Of a DNA stretch of 64,000 nucleotides, positions 1,053 to 63,185 are shown in pieces (position 1 is the first letter of the stretch; every line of letters starts with the position of its first letter). The DNA is from Halobacteriales archaeon YIM A00013 (GTDB lineage Archaea; Halobacteriota; Halobacteria; Halobacteriales; Haloarculaceae). Position numbers and translations under genes: made by a program. The stretch lies in the NCBI GenBank assembly GCA_025041195.1, contig JAKCFM010000001.1:1240001-1304000 (forward strand), in the 5' to 3' direction. Below the pieces are notes generated by a model, which saw only the letters and a list, made by a program, of their open reading frames with translations, had not been told where the DNA came from and made no database searches.

Positions 1053-1853
1053 CTACGCCACCGTCCGACGGCTCACAACGGTGAGAACGCCCAGTACGAG
1101 CGCGCTAACCGACAGCAACAACAGTGCCAGGGGAAACGTATCATCGAGCCCAAACGTCTGATACGAATGATACATTTCAACCGGAAGCGTGGTTGGGGTG
1201 TAGGCGAGCATCATAGTTGCGCCGAACTCACCAATTGCTCGGGCGAACGTCAGGGCGATACCCGCAACCAGCCCAGGCCAGGCGAGCGGTAGCGTCACGT
1301 ATTGGATGGTTTCTCTATGGGTTTTGCCAAGCGAGCGAGAGGCGAGTTCAAGGCGTCGATCCACACGCTCAAACGCGGTCGTTGCGGTCACGACGAACAG
1401 CGGCGTTGCGACGAACGTCTGGGCGAGCACCACGCCGATGAGCGAGTTTGTGAGCGCAACGCCTGCGTCGGCTGCAAGCGTTCCGAGGAGGGTGTTCGGA
1501 CCGACGACAGTGAGGACGACGAATCCACCAACCGTTGGTGGCAGAACGAGTGGTAGCGTGACGACCCCGAGAACGATTCGTGACCAGGGTGCGTCCGCCC
1601 GCGCAAGCCAGTACGCAAGTGGTAGCCCGCCAGCCACGCCGAGCATCGTCGAAATCGTTGCCGTCACCAGGGAAGTCACCGTCGCTGACCGGATTGCTGG
1701 AGCCCCAATCCTGGAGAGAATCGTCTCTGGACCACCCAGATAGAGCAATGACAGGAGTGGAACGGCGTAAAAACACACTAACAGTCCGCCCAGCGACAGA
1801 GCGCGACTGGATGCGCCCCCAATCGTTCGCGCATGCGAATGCACACTGCCCAT
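1053..1853 (-). CDS. wtpB: tungstate/molybdate-type ABC transporter permease
   Basis: A 266-residue inner-membrane permease of the ModB/WtpB/TupB type. About six membrane helices are visible. The cytoplasmic EAA loop, which contacts the ATPase, is seen as LELASRSLGKTHRETIQYVTLPLAWPG split around residues 170-195, followed by ARAIGEFGATMML, which is typical of molybdate and tungstate permeases. The ATG overlaps the stop of the binding-protein gene (ATGA), so the two are translationally coupled. The frame is open further upstream but that part overlaps the binding protein. No ATP-binding subunit follows; the next gene downstream is the DUF7116-like protein. Substrate choice (tungstate or molybdate) is inferred from the binding protein and the ModE-like neighbour. 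Confidence 0.85.
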   Translation of the reverse strand: MGSVHSHARTIGGASSRALSLGGLLVCFYAVPLLSLLYLGGPETILSRIGAPAIRSATVTSLVTATISTMLGVAGGLPLAYWLARADAPWSRIVLGVVTLPLVLPPTVGGFVVLTVVGPNTLLGTLAADAGVALTNSLIGVVLAQTFVATPLFVVTATTAFERVDRRLELASRSLGKTHRETIQYVTLPLAWPGLVAGIALTFARAIGEFGATMMLAYTPTTLPVEMYHSYQTFGLDDTFPLALLLLSVSALVLGVLTVVSRRTVA

Positions 1854-2776
1854 CAGAGCGCCTCGCTGATGTCGGACGGAACGGCTCCCGTAGCAATCGG
1901 GTGTTCGTCTCGGACGATGAATCCCGAGCGATCGAGATACGATCCCGTAATCTGTTCGGAAAACACCGCCCGGACTGACGGCGCATTTCGGCGGATTGTC
2001 GTGGCGTAGCCGATCGGTGCCCCCGCTATCGTCTCTCCCGAGGGAAGCTCGTAGGTGACGGTCGAATACCACGATTTGGTCGCTGCTGGATTGCTGAGAT
2101 CGATCGCATCAGGGAGTTCGACGAATTCGTAGCCCCGTTCAGTGGCCATGTTTCGATAGGTAAACGCCGCGTCGATCGCCCCGATTTCGAACTGCCCGAG
2201 CAGGCCTGTCTCTGGAACGATTCGGGTCGATTCCAGCACCCGATCGGTGAGCTCTGGCGACTCGTGGTAGCGCGCAGCCAGCTCCAGTGCAAAGAGCGTC
2301 CGATAGCCCAGTGGATCCTGGTCGGGATCCGTCCGGCCAAGCGTGGGGTCGCCATCGAGAAGCGGCTCATACCAGCGATCGACTCCCACCGATGACAGGC
2401 GACGTCCGATCGCCGTCTCCGTGTTGTATGCAAGAACGATCGCATTGCTCGTGAATGTCACATACCACGACGGCGTGAGGAGTTCTTCGAACAGGGAATC
2501 ATCTGCTACCGTCACGATATCTGGATCACGCTGGCCCGACGCAACGAGTCGAGCGACGGTGGCTGAGCCGTGCGCCTCGATTTCGACCGGTACGGAAAGC
2601 GCCGGTGCGAGCTCCTCCTCGAAGGTGTACTGTACGCTCCCTGCGGTCAGCATTGAAACAGGATCGGTGGTGCGTTCGCCCACGAGCTTCGAACAGCCTG
2701 TCAGAGTAGCGAGGCCTGACAGCCCAATCGACTGCAGTAGTTGCCGCCGCCCCCATTTGCTCGTCGTTATTTCCAT
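1853..2776 (-). CDS. wtpA: tungstate/molybdate-type ABC transporter substrate-binding lipoprotein
   Basis: About 307 residues. The N-terminus carries a Tat-like twin arginine (KWGRRQLL) followed by a lipobox (LTGC), so the mature protein should be a lipoprotein on the outer face of the membrane. The body fits the WtpA type of oxyanion-binding protein: LTAGSVQYTFEEEL near the N-terminus, DPDIVTVADDSLFEELL, WYVTFTSNAIVLAYN and the late YEFVELPDAIDLSN segment. ATGs at 2815 and 2809 also exist. I prefer 2776 because it puts the twin arginine at residues 10-11 and leaves room for a promoter before the divergent regulator. It is coupled to the permease downstream. Confidence 0.82.
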   Translation of the reverse strand: MEITTSKWGRRQLLQSIGLSGLATLTGCSKLVGERTTDPVSMLTAGSVQYTFEEELAPALSVPVEIEAHGSATVARLVASGQRDPDIVTVADDSLFEELLTPSWYVTFTSNAIVLAYNTETAIGRRLSSVGVDRWYEPLLDGDPTLGRTDPDQDPLGYRTLFALELAARYHESPELTDRVLESTRIVPETGLLGQFEIGAIDAAFTYRNMATERGYEFVELPDAIDLSNPAATKSWYSTVTYELPSGETIAGAPIGYATTIRRNAPSVRAVFSEQITGSYLDRSGFIVRDEHPIATGAVPSDISEAL

Positions 2777-2842
2777 TCGGACATATCGATCTCGTGCTGT
2801 CTGTGACATAATCATTTTGCCCGAGTGACTGTGTAACAGTGC

Positions 2843-3532
2843 ATGGAACACGAAGTGGCGATCAATACGGCATTGCGGGCTGGCGATGTGCAGTTTACGG
2901 AGCGTGACGCAGCACTGCTCCGAGCAATTGCGGCAAACGGCTCGCTCTCGGGTGGTGCAACCGCCCTTGGGCGATCGTACGCGAGAGCACAACGACGAAT
3001 CGTTGAGCTCGAAACGGCGTTTGGCGCGCTTGTCGAGCGAACGCGTGGTGGAGCCGACGGCGGCCACAGCACACTGACCCACGCTGGGATGCGACTGTGT
3101 GCGACGTACGACCGGCTGGACTCCGAGCTGCACGCCCACACGAACGTCGATGCGACGGTTCTCGACGGCGTCGTTCGTGAGGGCGCCGGCGCGCTCGGCA
3201 CCGTCGATACTGGCGTCGGGATGGTTCGTGCGGTTGTTCCGTCAGGGGAGAAATCCGTTCGGGTCGTCATCCGTGCCGACACCGTCACCCTATTCGAGCC
3301 CGAAAGCGTCCCAGCAACCGCGACCAGTGCTCGAAACCAATTTTTGGGAACCGTCAGTTCCGTCGACGATCGCGCAACCGCCGTCCGGGTTGACCTCGCC
3401 ATCGGTTCTGGCACCGATCTCACTGCGCTGATTACGCCAGAAAGCGCCGACCGACTCGCCGTCGAATCCGGATCCGAACTGGTGAGCGCATTCAAAGCGA
3501 CCGCCACACGGGCGTTTGCCACCTTCGATTGA
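2843..3532 (+). CDS. ModE-like transcriptional regulator (LysR-type HTH plus TOBE domain)
   Basis: 229 residues. Residues about 20-85 form a ModE/LysR-type winged helix (ERDAALLRAIAANGSLSGGA, then ALGRSYARAQRRIVELE). Residues about 160-225 look like a TOBE (molbindin) oxyanion-binding domain, with RNQFLGTVSSVDDRATAVRVDL and a late LTALITPESADRLAV. The gene is divergent from the binding-protein and permease genes, so it probably senses molybdate or tungstate and controls them. About 66 bases separate the two starts, so any operator should lie in 2777-2842, although I see no clear palindrome there. The middle part, around residues 90-155, is less conserved in appearance. Confidence 0.85.
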   Translation: MEHEVAINTALRAGDVQFTERDAALLRAIAANGSLSGGATALGRSYARAQRRIVELETAFGALVERTRGGADGGHSTLTHAGMRLCATYDRLDSELHAHTNVDATVLDGVVREGAGALGTVDTGVGMVRAVVPSGEKSVRVVIRADTVTLFEPESVPATATSARNQFLGTVSSVDDRATAVRVDLAIGSGTDLTALITPESADRLAVESGSELVSAFKATATRAFATFD

Positions 3533-3587: not shown

Positions 3588-3605
3588 AATCGAAAACGAT
3601 TATAC
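3588..3605. promoter_or_regulatory. biotin operon promoter with overlapping short palindrome
   Basis: A TATA-like ATTATAC at 3599-3605 lies about 25 bases before the GTG start of bioB, as expected for a leaderless haloarchaeal transcript. It overlaps an inverted repeat AATCG-AAAA-CGATT (3588-3601). That repeat could be an operator or simply the BRE/TATA context; the arms are only 5 bases. Confidence 0.5.
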
Positions 3606-3627
3606 ACCGTCAACTGATTGTTCTATT

Positions 3628-4737
3628 GTGGTTTACGAGACCGGCAACCGGACGGTAGACGACGCCGTCGCTCGCGTCCTCTCCGGAGAGACGCTGGATC
3701 GAACGGATGGCCTCGCACTGCTGGCGCAGCCAGTCCAGCCGCTCGCCGCAGGAGCGGACCTCGTTCGATCACGATATAGCGACGGAACGGTCGACGCCTG
3801 TTCGATCGTGAACGCGAAGGCGGGCAACTGTGCCGAGGACTGTGGATTTTGTGCACAGTCCGTTCACTTCGATACGGGAATCGATACGTACGGCCTTCTG
3901 GATCCAGAGGAGATCCTGGCTGCCGCACACCGTGCCGAACGCGACGGCGCACAGCGGTTTGGCATCGTCGTGGCGGAGAAAGGAGTGAGCAAACAACGCC
4001 GCCCAGAGGAGTGGGCAGAGGTGCTCCGTGCGATTCGACTCGTGCGCGATGAGACGGCTATTGAAGTCGACGCGAGCCTCGGCATCCTCACGGAAGAAGA
4101 GGCACAGATTCTCGCTGCTGAAGGAATCAATCATTACAACCACAACATCGAAACCTCCCCAGAGTATTTCCCTGAGATCGTCGGCACCCACTCGTTCGAC
4201 GACCGGGTGGAGACGCTGCAGGTCGCAAAAGACGCCGGGATGGATCTCTGTGCGGGGGTGATCCTCGGCATGGGTGAATCGCCTGCCGATCGGGTTTCGG
4301 CGGCAATCGCACTCCAGGAGATCGGGATTTCCTCGCTACCGGTGAACGTGTTGAATCCAGTCGCAGGGACGCCGCTTGGCGACGATGATGGCGCCAGCAT
4401 CGAAACGGAGGAGCTGATCAAGACGATAGCCGTCTATCGGCTGTTGCATCCGCGCGCACGGGTTCGACTCACCGGTGGTCGGGAAGTCAACCTCGATCCC
4501 GACGAGCAGCATTTACCGTTCGAAGCGGGAGCTGACGGCATTCTCACGGGCGATTATCTGACGACGGAGGGACAATCGCCGGGGGAAGACATCCGCATTA
4601 TCGAGCGGGCGGGCTTACAACCGAATCGGTCGGTCAATCCGTTCGATCCCGAAGCCGTCAAATCTGACACTGAACCGAAACCGGCGACCTCGCCCGCCGT
4701 CGGCACCGCAACAAGCAACACAGCGAATCAGGAGTAA
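3628..4737 (+). CDS. bioB: biotin synthase
   Basis: 369-residue radical-SAM enzyme that inserts sulfur into dethiobiotin, the last step of biotin synthesis. The radical-SAM cluster cysteines are C68, C72 and C75 in GNCAEDCGFCAQS. Other family signatures are YNHNIETSPEYFPEI, CAGVILGMGE, and LTGGREV followed by GADGILTGDYLTT. The start is GTG (MVYETGNRT) and is supported by a TATA-like element 25 bases upstream. The C-terminal tail of about 35 residues (PKPATSPAVGTATSN...) looks disordered. It is the first gene of a four-gene operon; the next start is only 6 bases after its stop. Confidence 0.95.
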   Translation: MVYETGNRTVDDAVARVLSGETLDRTDGLALLAQPVQPLAAGADLVRSRYSDGTVDACSIVNAKAGNCAEDCGFCAQSVHFDTGIDTYGLLDPEEILAAAHRAERDGAQRFGIVVAEKGVSKQRRPEEWAEVLRAIRLVRDETAIEVDASLGILTEEEAQILAAEGINHYNHNIETSPEYFPEIVGTHSFDDRVETLQVAKDAGMDLCAGVILGMGESPADRVSAAIALQEIGISSLPVNVLNPVAGTPLGDDDGASIETEELIKTIAVYRLLHPRARVRLTGGREVNLDPDEQHLPFEAGADGILTGDYLTTEGQSPGEDIRIIERAGLQPNRSVNPFDPEAVKSDTEPKPATSPAVGTATSNTANQE

Positions 4738-4743
4738 CTATCA

Positions 4744-5793
4744 ATGGACGAAACGAAGATCGCAGTCCTCGGAACCGGTGGTATCGGCCGACGAACGCTC
4801 GAACTCATGACGCACAAATCATGGGGGACGCCGGTGGCGGCGTGTGATCGTTACGGGATCGCCGTCGATCACGATGGGCTCGACGTAGACGAACTACTCA
4901 GCGCCACGGAGGGAAATCTGGCAAGCGAACGCGACGGCGACCCGTCGACAGATGGCGGTGTCGCCGTCAAACAGAGCGGCCCCGATAAGGGAGTCGTGGC
5001 CTCAGAGCAGGCCGTTCCGACGGAAACTCCAATCGACGACGTGATCGCAGAGAGCGAGGCGATCGATGCGGTTGTGCTTGCGCTTCCGAATCTGGAGCAT
5101 GATTTCATTCCACGGATCGCCGATCGATTCGTGGCGGCGGGCTTCGAGGGAGTCCTCATCGATGTGCTCAAGCGCTCGCGCGTGATTGGGATGCTCGATG
5201 AACGTGCCGCCGACTTCGAATCGAACGGCATCACCTTCGTCTGTGGCGCTGGTGCAACGCCGGGCGTTCTCACCGGCGCGGCGGCACTCGCGGCCCAATC
5301 GTTCGTCACAGTCGAGTCGGTCGACATCTGGTGGGGTGTCGGGCTGAAATCCGGCTACGCCGACAACCGTGGCACCGTTCGTGAAGACATTGCGCATCTC
5401 GATGGGTACGACATCGAGACCGCCCGAGAGCTGTCGGACGAGGAGATCGAGGCGATCATCGACGAGCACGACGGCGTCCTGGAATTTACGGACATGGAAC
5501 ACGCCGACGACGTACTGCTAGAGCGTGCCGGCATCTGTGACGCCGAAGCCGTGACCGTCGGCGGGATCCTCGACGTTCGGAGCGACGAAAAGCCAACGAC
5601 CACGACCGTCACCGTCACCGGAACGACGTTCGACGGCGAGCAGGCAACGAATACGTTCGAACTGGGCGATGCAACGAGTATGGCAGCCAACGTAAACGGT
5701 CCGGCGGTTGGCTACCTCAAAACGGCCGTCCAACGGAACAGAAACGGCATCTACGGCGTATTTGGCCCCACAGAGCTGTTGCCGGGGTTCTAG
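4744..5793 (+). CDS. bioU: BioU-type Rossmann oxidoreductase replacing BioA in the biotin operon
   Basis: 349 residues. A dinucleotide-binding glycine loop (GTGGIGRR, residues 10-17) opens a Rossmann fold, followed by a saccharopine-dehydrogenase-like core (LALPNLEHDFIPRIADRF, IDVLKRSRVIGM, FVCGAGATPGVLTGAAALAA) and a C-terminal catalytic-type domain. It sits between bioB and bioF, and no aminotransferase (BioA) is present. Established knowledge: BioU of Synechocystis converts the BioF product (KAPA) to DAPA without BioA by donating the amino group of one of its own lysines, and homologues occur in haloarchaea. Inference: this gene fills the KAPA-to-DAPA step. Residues about 55-95 (acidic, S/G/D-rich) appear to be an insertion. 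I cannot tell from sequence alone whether the self-sacrificing lysine is conserved; K143 in VLKRS is one candidate to align. Confidence 0.8.
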   Translation: MDETKIAVLGTGGIGRRTLELMTHKSWGTPVAACDRYGIAVDHDGLDVDELLSATEGNLASERDGDPSTDGGVAVKQSGPDKGVVASEQAVPTETPIDDVIAESEAIDAVVLALPNLEHDFIPRIADRFVAAGFEGVLIDVLKRSRVIGMLDERAADFESNGITFVCGAGATPGVLTGAAALAAQSFVTVESVDIWWGVGLKSGYADNRGTVREDIAHLDGYDIETARELSDEEIEAIIDEHDGVLEFTDMEHADDVLLERAGICDAEAVTVGGILDVRSDEKPTTTTVTVTGTTFDGEQATNTFELGDATSMAANVNGPAVGYLKTAVQRNRNGIYGVFGPTELLPGF

Positions 5794-5795
5794 GC

Positions 5796-7010
5796 ATGCA
5801 TTCGGAACCGCCGTTAGAGCACGGCTTCGATCCCGTGTCTCGACTTAATGCGCGCGAGGATGCGGGCCTCCGTCGAGCGCTAGCACCATACGAAACGGTC
5901 AGCGCTCGGACGCGGTGGACGGCTGATCCGCGCGGCGAACAACCAGTGTTCGCCGGTGAGCGTTCGGCGATCGTGATGGCCTCAAACAACTATCTCGGTC
6001 TTGCCGGCGACGATCGCGTCACCGACGCCGCAGGGCAGTGTGCCGAGCTGGTTGGCGCGGGCGCGGGAGCAAGCCGGCTCGTTACCGGTGATACGCCCGT
6101 GCATCGAGCGCTTGAGCGTGATCTCGCTCGCACGAAAGAAACTGACCGCGCACTGACCTTTTCTTCGGGCTACGCTGCGAACGTGGGGACGATCACGGCG
6201 CTCGATCCAGATGTGGTTTTCTCCGACGCGTCAAACCACGCTTCGATCATCGATGGCTGTCGGCTGGCATCCAGTGACGTCGTCGTCTATGACCACTGTG
6301 ATCCCGATGCACTTGAGACGGCAATGGCGGACCGTGCGAGTGAGCGTTCGTCTGCAGGCTCGTGGCTGGTTGTCACCGATTCCGTCTTCAGCATGGACGG
6401 CGATGTGGCGCCACTCCCTGCGCTCTGCGACGTGGCTGAGCGGTTCGGGGCATGGATGATGGTCGATGAAGCCCACGCCACCGGCCTGTACGCAGATGGT
6501 GGCGGCATTGTCCAGCATGAGGATCTCTCTGATCGGATACAGATCCAGCTCGGGACGCTCTCGAAGGCGCTCGGTGCACAGGGGGGCTACGTGGCAGCCA
6601 GCGAACCAGTGGTGGAACTGCTCGCAAACGAGGCTCGGTCGTTTGTGTACTCGACTGGGCTCGCGCCACCGGTGGCGGCGGCGGCACAACGGGCGCTCTC
6701 GATTGCGCGTCACAGCGACCGGAGAGAACAGCTCTGGTCGAACGTTGATCGCCTGCGGACTGGCCTCACAGCGGCGGGCTACGACATTGCCGGCTCGTCA
6801 CAGATTCTTCCCGTCATCGTTGGTGACCGCCAGAATGCGCTTGCGCTCGCGGCGGAACTTGCTGAAGCGGGGATCATTGCCCCGGCCATTCGCCCACCGA
6901 CGGTCCCTGAGGGAACGAGTCGGATCCGACTCGCACCGATGGCGACGCACACGCCCGAAGCAATTGACCGCTGTGTCAGCGCGTTCGAGCGCGCGGAGGG
7001 CACACCGTGA
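5796..7010 (+). CDS. bioF: 8-amino-7-oxononanoate synthase
   Basis: 404-residue PLP enzyme of the alpha-oxoamine synthase family that condenses pimeloyl thioester with alanine. Seen directly: NNYLGLAGD (64-72), GSGAS-like GAGAGASRLVTGD, the cofactor motif DEAHATG (224-230) and the Schiff-base lysine K257 in TLSKALGAQGGY. The start lies 2 bases after the bioU stop, and its own stop overlaps the bioD GTG (GTGA), so all four biotin genes are tightly packed. Length is near the usual 380-400. Confidence 0.94.
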   Translation: MHSEPPLEHGFDPVSRLNAREDAGLRRALAPYETVSARTRWTADPRGEQPVFAGERSAIVMASNNYLGLAGDDRVTDAAGQCAELVGAGAGASRLVTGDTPVHRALERDLARTKETDRALTFSSGYAANVGTITALDPDVVFSDASNHASIIDGCRLASSDVVVYDHCDPDALETAMADRASERSSAGSWLVVTDSVFSMDGDVAPLPALCDVAERFGAWMMVDEAHATGLYADGGGIVQHEDLSDRIQIQLGTLSKALGAQGGYVAASEPVVELLANEARSFVYSTGLAPPVAAAAQRALSIARHSDRREQLWSNVDRLRTGLTAAGYDIAGSSQILPVIVGDRQNALALAAELAEAGIIAPAIRPPTVPEGTSRIRLAPMATHTPEAIDRCVSAFERAEGTP

Positions 7011-7684
7011 ACGTCGCGGTACTTGGCACCGACACTGGTGTCGGCAAAACGATCATCACCGCTGGCCTGGTCGGTGCGCTTCGACGTGCAGGCCACGACG
7101 CACGAGCCGTCAAGCCAGCACAGACCGGCTATCCCCCGGATGATGACGCTGGAACCGTTGTCAGTATTTGTGAAGATTCGGCGGCTGCCCACTGCTGTCG
7201 GTATCTGGATGAGCCGCTTGCACCCGCCATCGCAGCCGAACGATCGGATGCGTCGCTCTCGTTCGATGCGATGTTCGCTGACGTAACTGATGCGCTCGAT
7301 TCGACAGCGATCGGCATCCTAGAGGGTGTTGGTGGCGTTCGTGTTCCGTTGACCGCTGAATCTGAACTCCTTGATCTCGTCTCCGCCGTAGAATGTCCCG
7401 CAATTGTCGTTTCTCGCCCGGCGCTCGGAACGCTCAACCACACTGCGCTGACCGTTGCGGCCCTCCAGAGACGTGCAATCCCGGTGCTTGGCGTCGTCCT
7501 CAATCAGTTCACCGGCGACACGGTCGCCGAACGAACGAACCCCGACGCCCTCAGATCGATGATCGACTGTCCGATCAGTACGTTCCCGCCTGTCGAGCAG
7601 GAGGCGGTGGTTGATACCACGCAAACCCGACTCGCGCCCATTATCGAGCAGATTCTCGACGGAACGCTCAGCGCACGTCGGTGA
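7007..7684 (+). CDS. bioD: dethiobiotin synthetase
   Basis: 225-residue ATP-dependent ligase that closes the ureido ring of dethiobiotin. The P-loop is GTDTGVGKT (residues 7-15). The substrate-binding lysine region is AVKPAQTG, and EGVGGVRVPL corresponds to the conserved acidic-glycine stretch. Start is GTG overlapping the bioF stop, and the length is normal for the family. It is the last gene of the biotin operon. No pimelate-forming gene (bioW, bioC, bioH or bioI type) is in this window. Confidence 0.92.
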   Translation: MNVAVLGTDTGVGKTIITAGLVGALRRAGHDARAVKPAQTGYPPDDDAGTVVSICEDSAAAHCCRYLDEPLAPAIAAERSDASLSFDAMFADVTDALDSTAIGILEGVGGVRVPLTAESELLDLVSAVECPAIVVSRPALGTLNHTALTVAALQRRAIPVLGVVLNQFTGDTVAERTNPDALRSMIDCPISTFPPVEQEAVVDTTQTRLAPIIEQILDGTLSARR

Positions 7685-8312: not shown

Positions 8313-8328
8313 TTTTGGTTAGCCAAAA
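8313..8328. promoter_or_regulatory. putative iron-repressor (DtxR/Idr-type) operator upstream of dpsA
   Basis: The inverted repeat TTTTGG-TTAG-CCAAAA is perfect in its arms and extends to AATTTTGG...CCAAAAATT. It sits just upstream of a TATA-like CTTAAG (8351-8356) that is 28-33 bases before the dpsA start. The core resembles the DtxR consensus TTAGGTTAGCCTAA, and haloarchaeal Idr proteins of the DtxR family are known to control dps-type genes. Binding is inferred, not shown. Confidence 0.6.
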
Positions 8329-8383
8329 ATTATTTTCAATATTGGGAATGCTTAAGTGGGTGGCGGGAATAGGTGTAACTGAA

Positions 8384-8932
8384 ATGAGTCACCAGGAAGG
8401 TCGGGTTCGCAAGGAGTCGGGCACTGTTCACGGAAACGAGCTTCGTCTCGACAAAGATCGTTCTGAGCAGATCATCGAGGCACTCAATACGGATCTCGCG
8501 AACAGCTACGTACTGTACCACCAGCTGAAAAAGCACCACTGGAACGTCGAGGGTGCAGAGTTCAGGGATATGCATCTGTTCCTTGAGGATGCCTACGAGA
8601 CCGTCGAGGAGGGAGCAGACCTCATCGCTGAACGCGCACAGGCGCTCGGCGGCGTGCCGGTAGCAGGCATGCCAGCACTCACCGATCGCGCAACGGTGTC
8701 GTTCGAAGACGAGGACGTGTACGACATCAGAACGTCGCTGGAGCACGACTTAGAGATCTATGGCGACATCATCGAATCGATCAGGGACCACATCGAGCTC
8801 GCGGACAATCTCGGTGATTACTACACAGGAGAGATGCTCCGAGAGATCCTCATCGGCGTCGAAGAAGATGCTCACCACATTGAACATTACCTCGAAGACG
8901 ACTCGCTCGTTCTCGAAAATGCCCTAAACTAA
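8384..8932 (+). CDS. dpsA: Dps-type ferritin-like DNA/iron protection protein
   Basis: 182 residues, close to the length of Halobacterium DpsA. Dps proteins form a 12-subunit shell that oxidises and stores iron and limits peroxide damage. The ferroxidase-site signature is seen as YHQLKKHHWNVEG (residues 45-57) followed by FRDMHLFLEDAYE (60-72), with late acidic EEDAHHIEHYLED. The frame is open to 8315, but the extra residues (MVSQKLFSIL...) overlap the palindrome and promoter, so I start at MSHQEGRV. The palindrome upstream suggests iron-dependent control. The TnpB element begins about 65 bases after its stop. Confidence 0.93.
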   Translation: MSHQEGRVRKESGTVHGNELRLDKDRSEQIIEALNTDLANSYVLYHQLKKHHWNVEGAEFRDMHLFLEDAYETVEEGADLIAERAQALGGVPVAGMPALTDRATVSFEDEDVYDIRTSLEHDLEIYGDIIESIRDHIELADNLGDYYTGEMLREILIGVEEDAHHIEHYLEDDSLVLENALN

Positions 8933-9259: not shown

Positions 9260-10459
9260 ATGAACTATAACTACCGGTACAGGCTTGACCCGTCCGTTGC
9301 TCTCCAAGAGACGTTGGACTACCACCGCGATCTGTATCGGCAAGTGTACAACCACTTTCTCTATCGACTCAACCGAGAAGACGAGACGACAAAATACGGA
9401 GAAATCAATCAGCTTCCGTCGATTAAGCAGTGGTGGGACGACCTCACCGGCCTGTATTCCCGAACGCTACAGAACGTCGTCGAACGGTTGTACACCAACC
9501 TCTCACGACTCAAAGAATCGAAGGATAATGGTCGTGCGGTTGGCCTACTCAAATGGAAAGCGCCGACCGAGTACCGATCATTCACGTATAGACAGTCTGG
9601 GTTTGAGCTCAAGAACACGAGTGGTCAGACCGTCCTACGGCTTTCAAAGATCGGAGAAATACCTGTTCATTTCCACCGAGAGATCCCCGAGAACGCGACT
9701 ATTAAACAAGTCACGGTCAAGAAGGAACCGACGGGCGAGTGGGTCGCCACGTTCGGCGTCGAAATGGACTGTGAACCGCTCGAACCGCCTGAGAATCCCA
9801 AAAAAAGCGTCGGTATCGACGTGGGGATTCTCAAGTACGCTCACGATACCGACGGTACGGCAGTCAGGTCGCTCAATCTCTCGGACGAGCGTGAACGGTT
9901 GGAACGTGAACAACGGAAACTTTCACGCAAGCAACACGGTTCCAACAACTGGGAGAAACAGCGGAAGGTTGTTGCTGAGCGCCATGCCGACCTCAAGCGA
10001 AAGCGCCGGGATTTCCTCCACAAACTGTCGAACTACTACGCACGCGAATACGACCTTGTCGCTGTCGAAGACTTAAACGTCGCGGGGATGATGCAGTTCG
10101 ACTCAAACTCACGAAACCGCGCATCCGCCGCATGGAGTACTTTTCTCAGGATGCTTGAGTATAAATGTGATCGAGAAGGAACGCACTATGTTCCGGTTGA
10201 GCCGAAAGATACCACCAAAGACTGTGCGGCGTGTGGTGTGAAAACCAACAAACAGTTGTGGGTCCGCGAACACTCCTGTCCAGCGTGTGGCTTCACGGCG
10301 GATAGAGACGCAAATGCTGCCTTGAATATTCTCTCTCAAGGCCTCGAAGACATAGGAGTGGGATACTCCGAATCAATGCCTGTGGAGACTGCGCTCCCTA
10401 CGGACACCGTTGTGTCTGCAAAGCGCGTCATTGAAACAGGAAGTCAAGGGAAATCGTAG
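9260..10459 (+). CDS. tnpB: TnpB RNA-guided nuclease (OrfB family), apparently intact
   Basis: 399 residues. RuvC-like catalytic residues are present: D187 in GIDVGILKYA, E270 in VAVEDLNVAGM and the aspartates of DRDANAALNI (348-350). The zinc finger CAACG...CPACG (residues 322-343) lies between the last two motifs, as in TnpB. The N-terminal WED/REC-like part holds YNHFLYRLN and WKAPTEYRSF. Established knowledge: TnpB cuts DNA using an omega RNA made from the element's right end. The N-terminus MNYNYRYRLDPS is typical and directly follows the small ORF stop. There is no frameshift or lost motif, so activity is plausible. Confidence 0.92.
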   Translation: MNYNYRYRLDPSVALQETLDYHRDLYRQVYNHFLYRLNREDETTKYGEINQLPSIKQWWDDLTGLYSRTLQNVVERLYTNLSRLKESKDNGRAVGLLKWKAPTEYRSFTYRQSGFELKNTSGQTVLRLSKIGEIPVHFHREIPENATIKQVTVKKEPTGEWVATFGVEMDCEPLEPPENPKKSVGIDVGILKYAHDTDGTAVRSLNLSDERERLEREQRKLSRKQHGSNNWEKQRKVVAERHADLKRKRRDFLHKLSNYYAREYDLVAVEDLNVAGMMQFDSNSRNRASAAWSTFLRMLEYKCDREGTHYVPVEPKDTTKDCAACGVKTNKQLWVREHSCPACGFTADRDANAALNILSQGLEDIGVGYSESMPVETALPTDTVVSAKRVIETGSQGKS

Positions 10460-40525: not shown

Positions 40526-42421
40526 TCAGTTCGATGATGACGCGTCGTCGTCCACGTCATCGAAGTCGGCATCGACGTACTCGGTGTCGTCGCCCATGCC
40601 AGCACCGTCCGGTCCTGCCCCACCCGGGCCAGCTGCTCCGGCACCGGGGCCAGCACCAGCGCCGCCAGCACCGGCGGCCTGCTGTTGATACATCTGCTTG
40701 CCGATCTCCTGGAGCGCTTCGGTGAGCGCTTCGGTGTCGTCTTTCAGCGCCTCGGTCGAAGCGTCCTCGTCTTCGAGCGTCTCCTCGACCGTTTCGATTG
40801 CCGACTCGATATCGGAACGAAGATCGTCTGAGACATCTTCCTCGTTCTCTTCGAGCAGCGTCTCGGCCTGCTGGATCGAGGATTCGGCGTTGTTGCGCGC
40901 CTCGACCCGCTCACGACGCTTCTCGTCTTCTTCGGCGTGTGCCTCTGCGTCAGCTTTCATCTGCTCGATCTCATCATCCGAGAGCCCAGTGCCACCCTCG
41001 ATGGTGATCGATTCTGCGTTGCCGCTGCCTTTGTCTTCGGCCTCAACGTTGACAATACCGTTCTCGTCAATGTTGAACGTCACTTCGATCTGTGGCGTTC
41101 CGGCCGGAGCCGGTGGAATGTCGGTGAGCTGGAACGCGCCGAGCAGCTCGTTCTCCTCGGCAACTTCGCGTTCGCCCTGGAACACCCGCACCTGCACGGC
41201 CTGCTGGTTGTCGGCCGCCGTGGTGAAGATCTTGGACTCTTTGGTCGGAATCGTGGTGTTTTTCTCGATGAGCCGCTCAAACAGCCCGCCTTTCACTTCA
41301 ATGCCGAGCGATAGCGGGGTCACATCGAGCAACACCATGTCGTCAACCTCGCCACCGAGAATGCCACCCTGAATCGCCGCCCCAAGCGCAACTGCTTCGT
41401 CGGGGTTGACGTTTTTCTTTGGCTCCTGCCCGGTGAGCGTCTCGACTTTCTCCTGGATCATCGGCATGCGCGTCGAGCCACCAACGAGGAGGACGCTGTC
41501 GATATCGTTTTTCGAGTAGCCAGCGTCGGCGAGTGCCTGCTCGGTCGGCGGCACCGTCCGGTCGACGAGATCCTGCGTCAGCGACTCGAATTTCGCGCGG
41601 CTGAGCTTCTTCTCAAGCGTCAATGGGCCAGAGTCCGTCGTCGCGATAAACGGCAGGTTGATCGTCGTCTCCTTCCGGCTGGAGAGTTCGACCTTCGCGT
41701 CTTCGGCGGCGTCTTTCAGCCGCTGGAGCGCCTGGCGGTCCTCAGTCAGATCCTTCCCGTGTTCTTGCTCGAACTCGGCGGCGAGCCAGTCGATAATCGC
41801 CTGATCCCAGTCGTCGCCACCGAGATCGTTGTCACCGTTGGTTGCCTCAACGTCGATGACGCCGCCACCGCTTTCGAGGACGGAAACGTCGAACGTGCCG
41901 CCACCAAGGTCGAACACCATCACGGTCTGTTCGGAGTCGTCGTCGAGACCGTAGGCCATCGACGCCGCCGTCGGCTCGTTGACGATTCGCTCTACCTCAA
42001 AGCCCGCAATCTCGCCGGCGTCTTTCGTCGCCTGGCGCTGGCTGTCGTTGAAATAGGCAGGAACAGTGATGACAGCTCGCTCGACGGTGTCACCGAGATA
42101 CTCCTCGGCATCGCGTTTGATCTTCTGGAGAATCATCGCCGAGATCTGCTCTGGCGTGTACTCCTCGCCGTCGATTGGGACCGTGTGATCACCCTCACCA
42201 ATGTGTCGTTTGATCGACTCAATCGTCCGGTCAGGATTCTGGACGGCCTGATTTTTCGCTGGTCCACCAATGAGTCGTTCGTCGTCGGTAAACGCGACCA
42301 CCGACGGCGTGGTGCGGTTACCCTCAGCATTCACGATTAGCTCGGGATCACCGCCTTCCATCACTGCAAAAGCGCTGTTTGTGGTACCGAGATCGATACC
42401 AAGAATCTTGTTGCTCGCCAT
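40526..42421 (-). CDS. dnaK: chaperone DnaK (Hsp70)
   Basis: 631 residues. ATPase domain starts [20 protein letters not shown], with [21 protein letters not shown] and [11 protein letters not shown]; the substrate domain carries [12 protein letters not shown] and VEAEDKGSG; the C-terminus is the alanine-, glycine- and proline-rich tail with an acidic end. Haloarchaea acquired DnaK from bacteria. The upstream GGGAG before ATG is a ribosome-binding site, and GGTTTAAC at about 42448-42456 is the likely TATA. No grpE or dnaJ is adjacent, although a second Hsp70-like gene with a J-domain partner lies at 61.6 kb. Confidence 0.97.
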
Positions 42422-42578
42422 GTTGTCTCCCTCTATTGCTGTCGAACCGTTAAACCTTGCTGAATAGAGCGCTTCACCGGCCGATCCAGTCCCCATGGCC
42501 GCTTGCGATTTCGTCCGGTCAGGACACGAATGCATGAGACGGGAAAGCCTTTACTGTCGGATGAGCTAGGCTGAACCA

Positions 42579-61595: not shown

Positions 61596-63185
61596 ATGAA
61601 GTCGTTACCCGTTGGCATCGATGTCGGCAGCTCGAGTAGTTCACTCGCCATCCACACTGCTGGGGCCATACAGACGATCACCGTTCCAACGGTCGTCTCC
61701 GTTTATGCGGACGAGGTGGTGGTCGGTTCGAGCGCAATCGATCGAATGACGGATGCACCCGCTCGCACCGTGACGGGATTTAATCGACGGCTCGGGACGA
61801 ACACCCGGATCGATCTTCCTGGCGAGCTGTCACCAGTTTCGCCGGTAGAGCTGACGGCGAGCGTGCTCAGGGCACTCTGCGATGGCGCACCAACAGACCG
61901 TCCTGGCTCAATCGACCGGGCAGTGTTGACAGTACCGGCGACGTACACGGCTACTCAGCGAAGGGCACTGCGGGCCGCCGGAGCCGTGGCAGATATCTCG
62001 GTCGATCGTATTATTGACGATCCAACAGCAACGGCAATCGGCTACTGTGCCCAGACAAATATCGACGGGCGGCTGTTCGTCTACGATCTCGGCGGTGGAA
62101 CGTTTGACGCAGCAGTTATCGATCGGACGGACGACCTGTTCGAGGTTTGCACAACGGGCGGTGATCCACGGATTGGAAGCGATGCATTTGATGCGACGAT
62201 CGTCGAATGGCTTGAAATCCACCTCAAACAACGCCACGACGTAGCGATCGGAGACGATCCGGTGGCGCTCCAGCAACTGTTCGAGACTGCCCAGGCCACA
62301 AAGCATGCACTGGCCACACATCGATCGACCGAGATTTCAACGACAATCACCCACAACGGGACCGACTACGATATTGAGCAGTTGCTCCACCGAACGCAGT
62401 TCGAACGACAGGCGAGGCCGATCGTTGACCGAACGATAGCGGCCTGTGAGTCGCTGTTACAGGCCAGTCACATTCCGAAATCATCGATCGATCATCTGCT
62501 AGTCGTGGGACAGACCGCACAGCTTTCGTTTATCCCTGAACGCATAGAACAGGCGTTTGGCAAGTCAGCAACGATCGTCACGGCCGATGCAATCACAGCG
62601 ACGGGTGCTGCCCATCGAGGAGCCTGGATACGCGATTTCGAGCAGTCCGTGAGTGAGCCAAGTGTCGCCATCGATGTTGTCCCACACTCGATTTGTGTTC
62701 ACTCTGCACCACGTGATCGACGGGAGTGGATACCGAACAACGCGGCCGTTCCAGCACGAACAACCACCATCGTCACAACCCGCACGAACCGACAGGAATC
62801 GATCATCGTTCCGGTGTACTATGATTTTTCCCAGCAGACAACACAGCATCCACCAACGATCGAGACGGACCCCTCCGAAAACCGGCACGAAACGGATGCG
62901 CACCACCGAAGCACAGATGATGATAGCCGTCGAACGTCAGCGACAGAGTCAGCCACCCGCAGTGGGCTCCTCGATGCGTTCAGGATCGGTCCCCTGCCAC
63001 CACAGCCAGCGGGCGAGCCGGCGATCGAACTGACACTCGAGTGTAGCTCCGACGGCATCGTGTCGGCAACGGCGACCAGCAAGCGTGCAGAGCAGCACAC
63101 GCAGATCGACGCTGTCTCGCTCTTTCGACACGACGAATCGACAATTGAACGGATGAAACACGATCGGCCACCCGTCAGACGATGA
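61596..63185 (+). CDS. divergent Hsp70-family protein without recognisable lid
   Basis: 529 residues. The ATPase domain is recognisable ([66 protein letters not shown]). After residue about 365 a partial substrate-binding beta domain is visible, split by a low-complexity S/T/H/D-rich insert (around 425-465), then resumed as PPQPAGEPAIELTLECSSDG. The alpha-helical lid and the GGA-rich tail of DnaK are absent. The first glycine loop has serines where DnaK has TTN. A membrane J-domain gene follows 61 bases downstream, so the pair may act together. Confidence 0.85.
   Translation: MKSLPVGIDVGSSSSSLAIHTAGAIQTITVPTVVSVYADEVVVGSSAIDRMTDAPARTVTGFNRRLGTNTRIDLPGELSPVSPVELTASVLRALCDGAPTDRPGSIDRAVLTVPATYTATQRRALRAAGAVADISVDRIIDDPTATAIGYCAQTNIDGRLFVYDLGGGTFDAAVIDRTDDLFEVCTTGGDPRIGSDAFDATIVEWLEIHLKQRHDVAIGDDPVALQQLFETAQATKHALATHRSTEISTTITHNGTDYDIEQLLHRTQFERQARPIVDRTIAACESLLQASHIPKSSIDHLLVVGQTAQLSFIPERIEQAFGKSATIVTADAITATGAAHRGAWIRDFEQSVSEPSVAIDVVPHSICVHSAPRDRREWIPNNAAVPARTTTIVTTRTNRQESIIVPVYYDFSQQTTQHPPTIETDPSENRHETDAHHRSTDDDSRRTSATESATRSGLLDAFRIGPLPPQPAGEPAIELTLECSSDGIVSATATSKRAEQHTQIDAVSLFRHDESTIERMKHDRPPVRR

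Follow-up and report, generated by a model that had tools for sequence, protein, structure and literature searches.

A haloarchaeal bioB-bioU-bioF-bioD operon that probably relies on a suicide-type BioU in place of BioA and on repression by BirA

The biotin enzyme BioU was reportedly studied by Sakaki et al. 2020 as Slr0355 of Synechocystis, and haloarchaea are already named in its EC entry. In the Synechocystis protein, Lys124 forms a conjugate with 8-amino-7-oxononanoate (AON) with the aid of NAD(P)H, the conjugate is carboxylated, and an NAD(P)+-dependent step releases DAN-carbamate, leaving the lysine without its amine (PMC12915131, PMC9302846, PMC7133116). A survey detected no bioA in Halobacteria, although about half of them had bioF, bioD, and bioB (PMC6138646). 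As for the regulation of biotin genes, the binding consensus of BirA is quoted in PMC545781 as TTGTAAACC-N14/15-GGTTTACAA.

The DNA analysed here, a window of 64,000 nucleotides from a haloarchaeon of the Halocatena/Actinarchaeum group, carries at 3628-7684 on the plus strand what is read, with a probability of roughly 0.9, as a biotin ring-assembly operon, bioB-bioU-bioF-bioD, in which a suicide BioU takes the place of BioA and which is repressed by BirA. The four genes are as follows.

3628..4737, plus strand: bioB, biotin synthase; GTG start; TIGR00433 at 340 bits against a cut-off of 225; Radical_SAM and BATS domains
4744..5793, plus strand: bioU, 8-amino-7-oxononanoate carboxylating dehydrogenase, probably replacing BioA; matches by phmmer, NF047886, and Foldseek
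5796..7010, plus strand: bioF; TIGR00858 at E 1e-123 and 413 bits, slightly below the cut-off of 426
7007..7684, plus strand: bioD, dethiobiotin synthase; GTG start overlapping the bioF stop; TIGR00347 at 115 bits against a cut-off of 83

The initial annotation had described a tightly packed four-gene operon, and this description holds: every gene lies where it was placed, the TIGR/NCBIfam family scans agree, and bioB and bioU are separated by 6 bases and bioU and bioF by 2, while bioF and bioD share a GTGA overlap. Of 110 haloarchaeal loci, 97 retain this gene order, some of the exceptions being truncated where the retrieved sequence stops; the order is also present outside the haloarchaea, in Methanoperedens and Omnitrophota; in Vampirovibrio, bioU adjoins bioD. 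A search for bioW, a candidate source of pimeloyl-CoA, did not find it.

Directly upstream of the operon, at 1053-3532, lie minus-strand genes of a molybdate/tungstate-type ABC transporter (permease and binding protein), which face a ModE-like regulator gene with a TOBE domain (2843-3532, plus strand). Elsewhere in the window are further putative loci, all named from their translations alone: a Dps-like ferritin gene (8315-8932), a stand-alone TnpB/IS605-type reading frame downstream of it (9260-10459), and, at 61596-63185 and 40526-42535, genes for the usual DnaK and for a second, divergent Hsp70/DnaK-like protein, the second one on the plus strand.

The product of the second gene matches Slr0355 from the PDB at E 1e-81 (phmmer) and is 45% identical to it over the full-length alignment, a figure for which the Synechocystis sequence was taken from the phmmer alignments and misses a few residues. 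The BioU model NF047886 recognizes it at E 6e-98 and 328 bits, below the curated cut-off of 600 bits; the same model gives 350 bits for Haloglomus, 365-464 bits for copies from Caenarcanales, Armatimonadota, Methanoperedens, and Woesearchaeota, and 640 bits for a copy from Arthrospira. Because all the non-cyanobacterial relatives scored fall short and the cyanobacterial copy does not, the cut-off appears to be tuned to cyanobacteria. An AlphaFold model of the protein, built from 30 relatives and with a pLDDT of 88, was compared by Foldseek with the five BioU crystal structures, giving TM scores of 0.88-0.89 by query and 0.94-0.95 by target, with 6itd at 0.89/0.95, whereas the next relatives in fold, DAP and D-amino-acid dehydrogenases, score about 0.53. 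The protein also contains the NAD(P)-binding motif GTGGIG, and glycines 10, 12, 13, and 15 are invariant in 110 of 110 loci. The catalytic region aligns with that of Synechocystis BioU, and the proposal that a BioU-type enzyme replaces BioA draws strong support from homology, fold, the operon context shared among loci, and the lack of BioA. The protein looks like an ordinary member of the known BioU family, not a new catalytic variant.

The two catalytic columns of the alignment are fixed by the titles of the K124A and H233A entries in the PDB together with the columns altered in them, so that the catalytic residues here are K143, in the context DVLKRSR, and H253, in the context DMEHADD.

5170..5172, plus strand: codon of K143, which corresponds to Lys124, the residue that Synechocystis BioU sacrifices; placed by alignments and by the column of the PDB K124A entries
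5500..5502, plus strand: codon of H253, equivalent of His233; column changed in PDB 6k38 (H233A)

BioU was found in 152 of the 391 haloarchaeal genomes searched, and both residues are present in all 150 genomes whose bioU covers the sites, a count that leaves out two genomes with only a remnant of bioU short of both; the haloarchaeal residue count runs to 159 rows, in which a single genome may appear as several pieces. A pattern scan of genome contigs yielded 80 further BioU loci, including ones from cyanobacteria, Poribacteria, Armatimonadota, Sumerlaeota, Vampirovibrio, Caenarcanales, Omnitrophota, Methanoperedens, and Woesearchaeota. The donor lysine and the histidine are invariant in an 89-row alignment of cyanobacteria, other bacteria, and archaea, where the histidine is biased by the use of the DMEHADD stretch as one of the two scan patterns and the lysine is unbiased. 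Homologues had been expected in cyanobacteria and haloarchaea, which both hold them, but the range is wider and takes in several other phyla.

It had also been suggested that, if the donor lysine were missing, the enzyme would be catalytic and would use a free amine instead. Alignment of the donor column places a lysine there, K143 opposite Lys124, and since K143 and H253 or their equivalents are present in all copies checked, a lysine-less, free-amine BioU is unsupported; loss of the donor lysine is rejected, as the residue stands in every copy covering the site. The earlier view of the locus thus keeps BioU in place of BioA and loses the missing lysine and the free-amine catalysis tied to it.

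Several observations on bioU copies in other genomes may be added. Homologues with the donor lysine occur in Poribacteria, Caenarcanales, Armatimonadota, Sumerlaeota, Omnitrophota, an unclassified bacterium, and Woesearchaeota, none of them with BioA over the cut-off, and one haloarchaeal genome carries bioU twice, on separate contigs and each time with the lysine. In three genomes, bioU is matched in separate pieces only, which are pseudogenes or assembly errors. The weak matches in two further genomes were considered as lysine-less paralogues and rejected: they are bioU remnants beside an intact bioB (in one genome beside bioF as well), and represent natural decay of bioU. Neither of the two strains should be capable of the BioA/BioU step, and both could serve as natural controls.

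The segment around residues 55-95, previously taken for an extra acidic stretch, turned out not to be notably acidic (19.5% Asp plus Glu, against 18.1% in the whole protein). Its variable core is the following.

4918..4980, plus strand: core of the variable linker, about residues 59-79; disordered in the AlphaFold model, with pLDDT below 50 for residues 60-79

The linker measures 48 residues here, 26-102 residues among haloarchaeal copies, and 25 in the same columns of Synechocystis. An acidic insertion as a functional feature is rejected on its ordinary acidity, variable length, and disorder; the segment is a disordered linker typical of haloarchaeal copies.

Because both catalytic residues are kept, the best inference for the haloarchaeal enzyme is the Lys124-type chemistry of Synechocystis BioU, including its single turnover. 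BioF would make AON, which BioU, in the place of BioA, would turn into the carbamate of the diamine: K143 would condense with AON through its side-chain amine, NAD(P)H would reduce the adduct, and, after carboxylation, oxidation by NAD(P)+ would free the product and leave K143 without its amino group, so that each BioU molecule would work only once. BioD and then BioB would complete biotin. A literature search found no paper on haloarchaeal BioU and no report of haloarchaeal BioU activity. Stronger translation signals on bioU, looked for as a mark of stoichiometric use, were not seen; its signals are no stronger than those of bioF and bioD, the strongest Shine-Dalgarno matches in the operon belong to bioD, and codon use hardly differs between the genes. 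The high cost of single turnover, set beside a bioU gene that bears no sign of extra expression, would suit an enzyme that keeps K143 yet turns over repeatedly, either with a free amine (lysine or glutamate, for instance) as the amino donor or through re-amination of the spent side chain, and its fold neighbours DAP dehydrogenase and lysine dehydrogenase are indeed catalytic amino-acid dehydrogenases. Such an enzyme is nevertheless very unlikely, as K143 and H253 are invariant in every copy checked and an unused lysine would be expected to drift somewhere among 150 genomes.

BirA sites in archaea are said to have been proposed already by Rodionov et al. 2002; regulation is the new part of the present analysis, and that proposal may already have covered the way the operator overlaps the start codon. 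Besides the suicide BioU, the preferred reading of the locus involves the following elements.

3594..3606, plus strand: TATA-box region of the bio promoter, with upstream AA, BRE-like; A+T-conserved columns
3609..3636, plus strand: BirA-type operator GTCAACT-N14-GGTTTAC, lying across the bioB start codon and codons 2-3
Contig C2:453735-453762 of the host genome: second BirA-type operator, 17 nt before bioY, with an ABC ATPase gene behind bioY

Among 106 haloarchaeal loci, the columns conserved as A+T upstream of bioB are -34/-33 and -30 to -26, the latter being about where the TATA box lies, and the distance of the TATA box from the bioB GTG suggests that the transcript is leaderless. The shared palindrome, GTNAAC-N16-GTTNAC, runs from -19 into codon 3 of bioB, and it matches the BirA consensus quoted in PMC545781 in core and spacing. 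The core lies at exactly -19, with the same spacing, at 102 of 103 haloarchaeal bioB starts (0 in shuffles), and codon 2 is GTT in 102 of 102, a codon that makes up 6% of the other valine codons of bioB, all of these counts coming from related loci and hence being non-independent. Codon 3 is TAC, AAC, or GAC, and this position is one where BirA sites also vary (PMC545781). With codon 2 always GTT and codon 3 limited to these three, the DNA, and not the protein alone, appears to be constrained at the bioB start. In the host genome, the operator pattern occurs at two sites only, the bioB start and the site before bioY, and across 57 genomes of the family it is about 10 times commoner than its backward control. 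The host BirA, of 312 amino acids, has HTH_11, BPL_LplA_LipB, and BPL_C domains.

By analogy with bacterial BirA, this protein would use its DNA-binding domain to repress the operon through the palindrome over the bioB start when biotin is plentiful, and would also control the bioY uptake operon. Codons 1-3 of a conserved protein contain the right half of the palindrome, as they would if the palindrome were conserved coding sequence or promoter and did not bind BirA, but that explanation is highly improbable given the uniform choice of GTT at codon 2, the variation of codon 3 where BirA sites vary as well (PMC545781), the non-coding left half, the fixed spacing, and the second copy that precedes bioY. 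An operator over the bioB start would give haloarchaea a simple BirA regulon, which in the host takes in two operons, led by bioB and bioY.

The absence of BioA, which had been noted for the operon, extends to the genome: there is no BioA-type PLP aminotransferase in the operon, and none over the curated cut-off in any of the 391 haloarchaeal genomes, that of the host included, in a search whose six control genomes, Methanocaldococcus among them, were detected as positive. The best host score with TIGR00508 is 240 bits against a cut-off of 405. The host has four class III aminotransferase-like genes, of which the three named ones score best as ArgD, as Dat/EctB-like, and as another family; the top BioA-scoring gene is itself best matched by ArgD. 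A BioA elsewhere in the host genome is rejected on these scores and on the better matches to the ArgD or Dat/EctB models. None of 17 non-haloarchaeal BioU genomes has BioA over the cut-off, the highest score being 359 bits for a Leptolyngbya gene. That an unrecognized class III aminotransferase does the BioA step and the middle gene encodes some other saccharopine/DAP-dehydrogenase-like enzyme is extremely unlikely, for although the genome has four such aminotransferase-like genes and bioU shares that broad dehydrogenase fold, the BioA model fits the aminotransferases far less well than the ArgD or Dat/EctB models do, the TM score is 0.89 to BioU structures against 0.53 to the next family, and bioU is retained in the operon in nearly all loci.

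In a quick tree, which is unrooted and whose long branches make the deeper order unsafe, the haloarchaeal BioU copies cluster together on a long stem, separate from the rest, and the Methanoperedens copy falls outside this cluster. BioU fills the gap at the BioA step in haloarchaea, and the strict retention of the lysine in the aligned copies indicates that self-sacrificing chemistry is no peculiarity of cyanobacteria and probably extends through haloarchaea and several other phyla. The operon and the BioU assignment are right, the proposed departure from suicide chemistry lacks support, and the well-conserved operator is a useful extra.

Among the described systems, the closest is BioU of Synechocystis sp. 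PCC 6803 (Slr0355; PDB 6ir4, 6itd, 6k36, 6k37, and 6k38), which the haloarchaeal protein resembles in whole-length homology and fold, in the presence of the donor lysine and the His233 equivalent, and in a genome from which BioA is absent. The haloarchaeal protein differs in its sequence, at 45% identity, in its longer, variable linker, and in that its gene lies inside a bioBUFD operon, whereas bioU had no neighbouring bio gene in the cyanobacterial loci examined. BioA, the S-adenosylmethionine:AON aminotransferase, serves the same pathway step, but is a PLP enzyme unrelated to BioU. The fold of meso-diaminopimelate dehydrogenase, lysine dehydrogenase, and saccharopine reductase shares the Rossmann dehydrogenase architecture of BioU, yet these are multi-turnover enzymes with TM scores of about 0.5 and 12-17% identity to the protein described here. 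The regulon resembles that of BirA in its half-sites, N14 spacing, HTH-bearing BirA, and bioB and bioY targets; it differs from the operator TTGTAAACC-N14/15-GGTTTACAA in that the outer TTG/CAA bases are weak or absent, and in that the site spans -19 to +9, covering the start codon just behind an archaeal TATA box.
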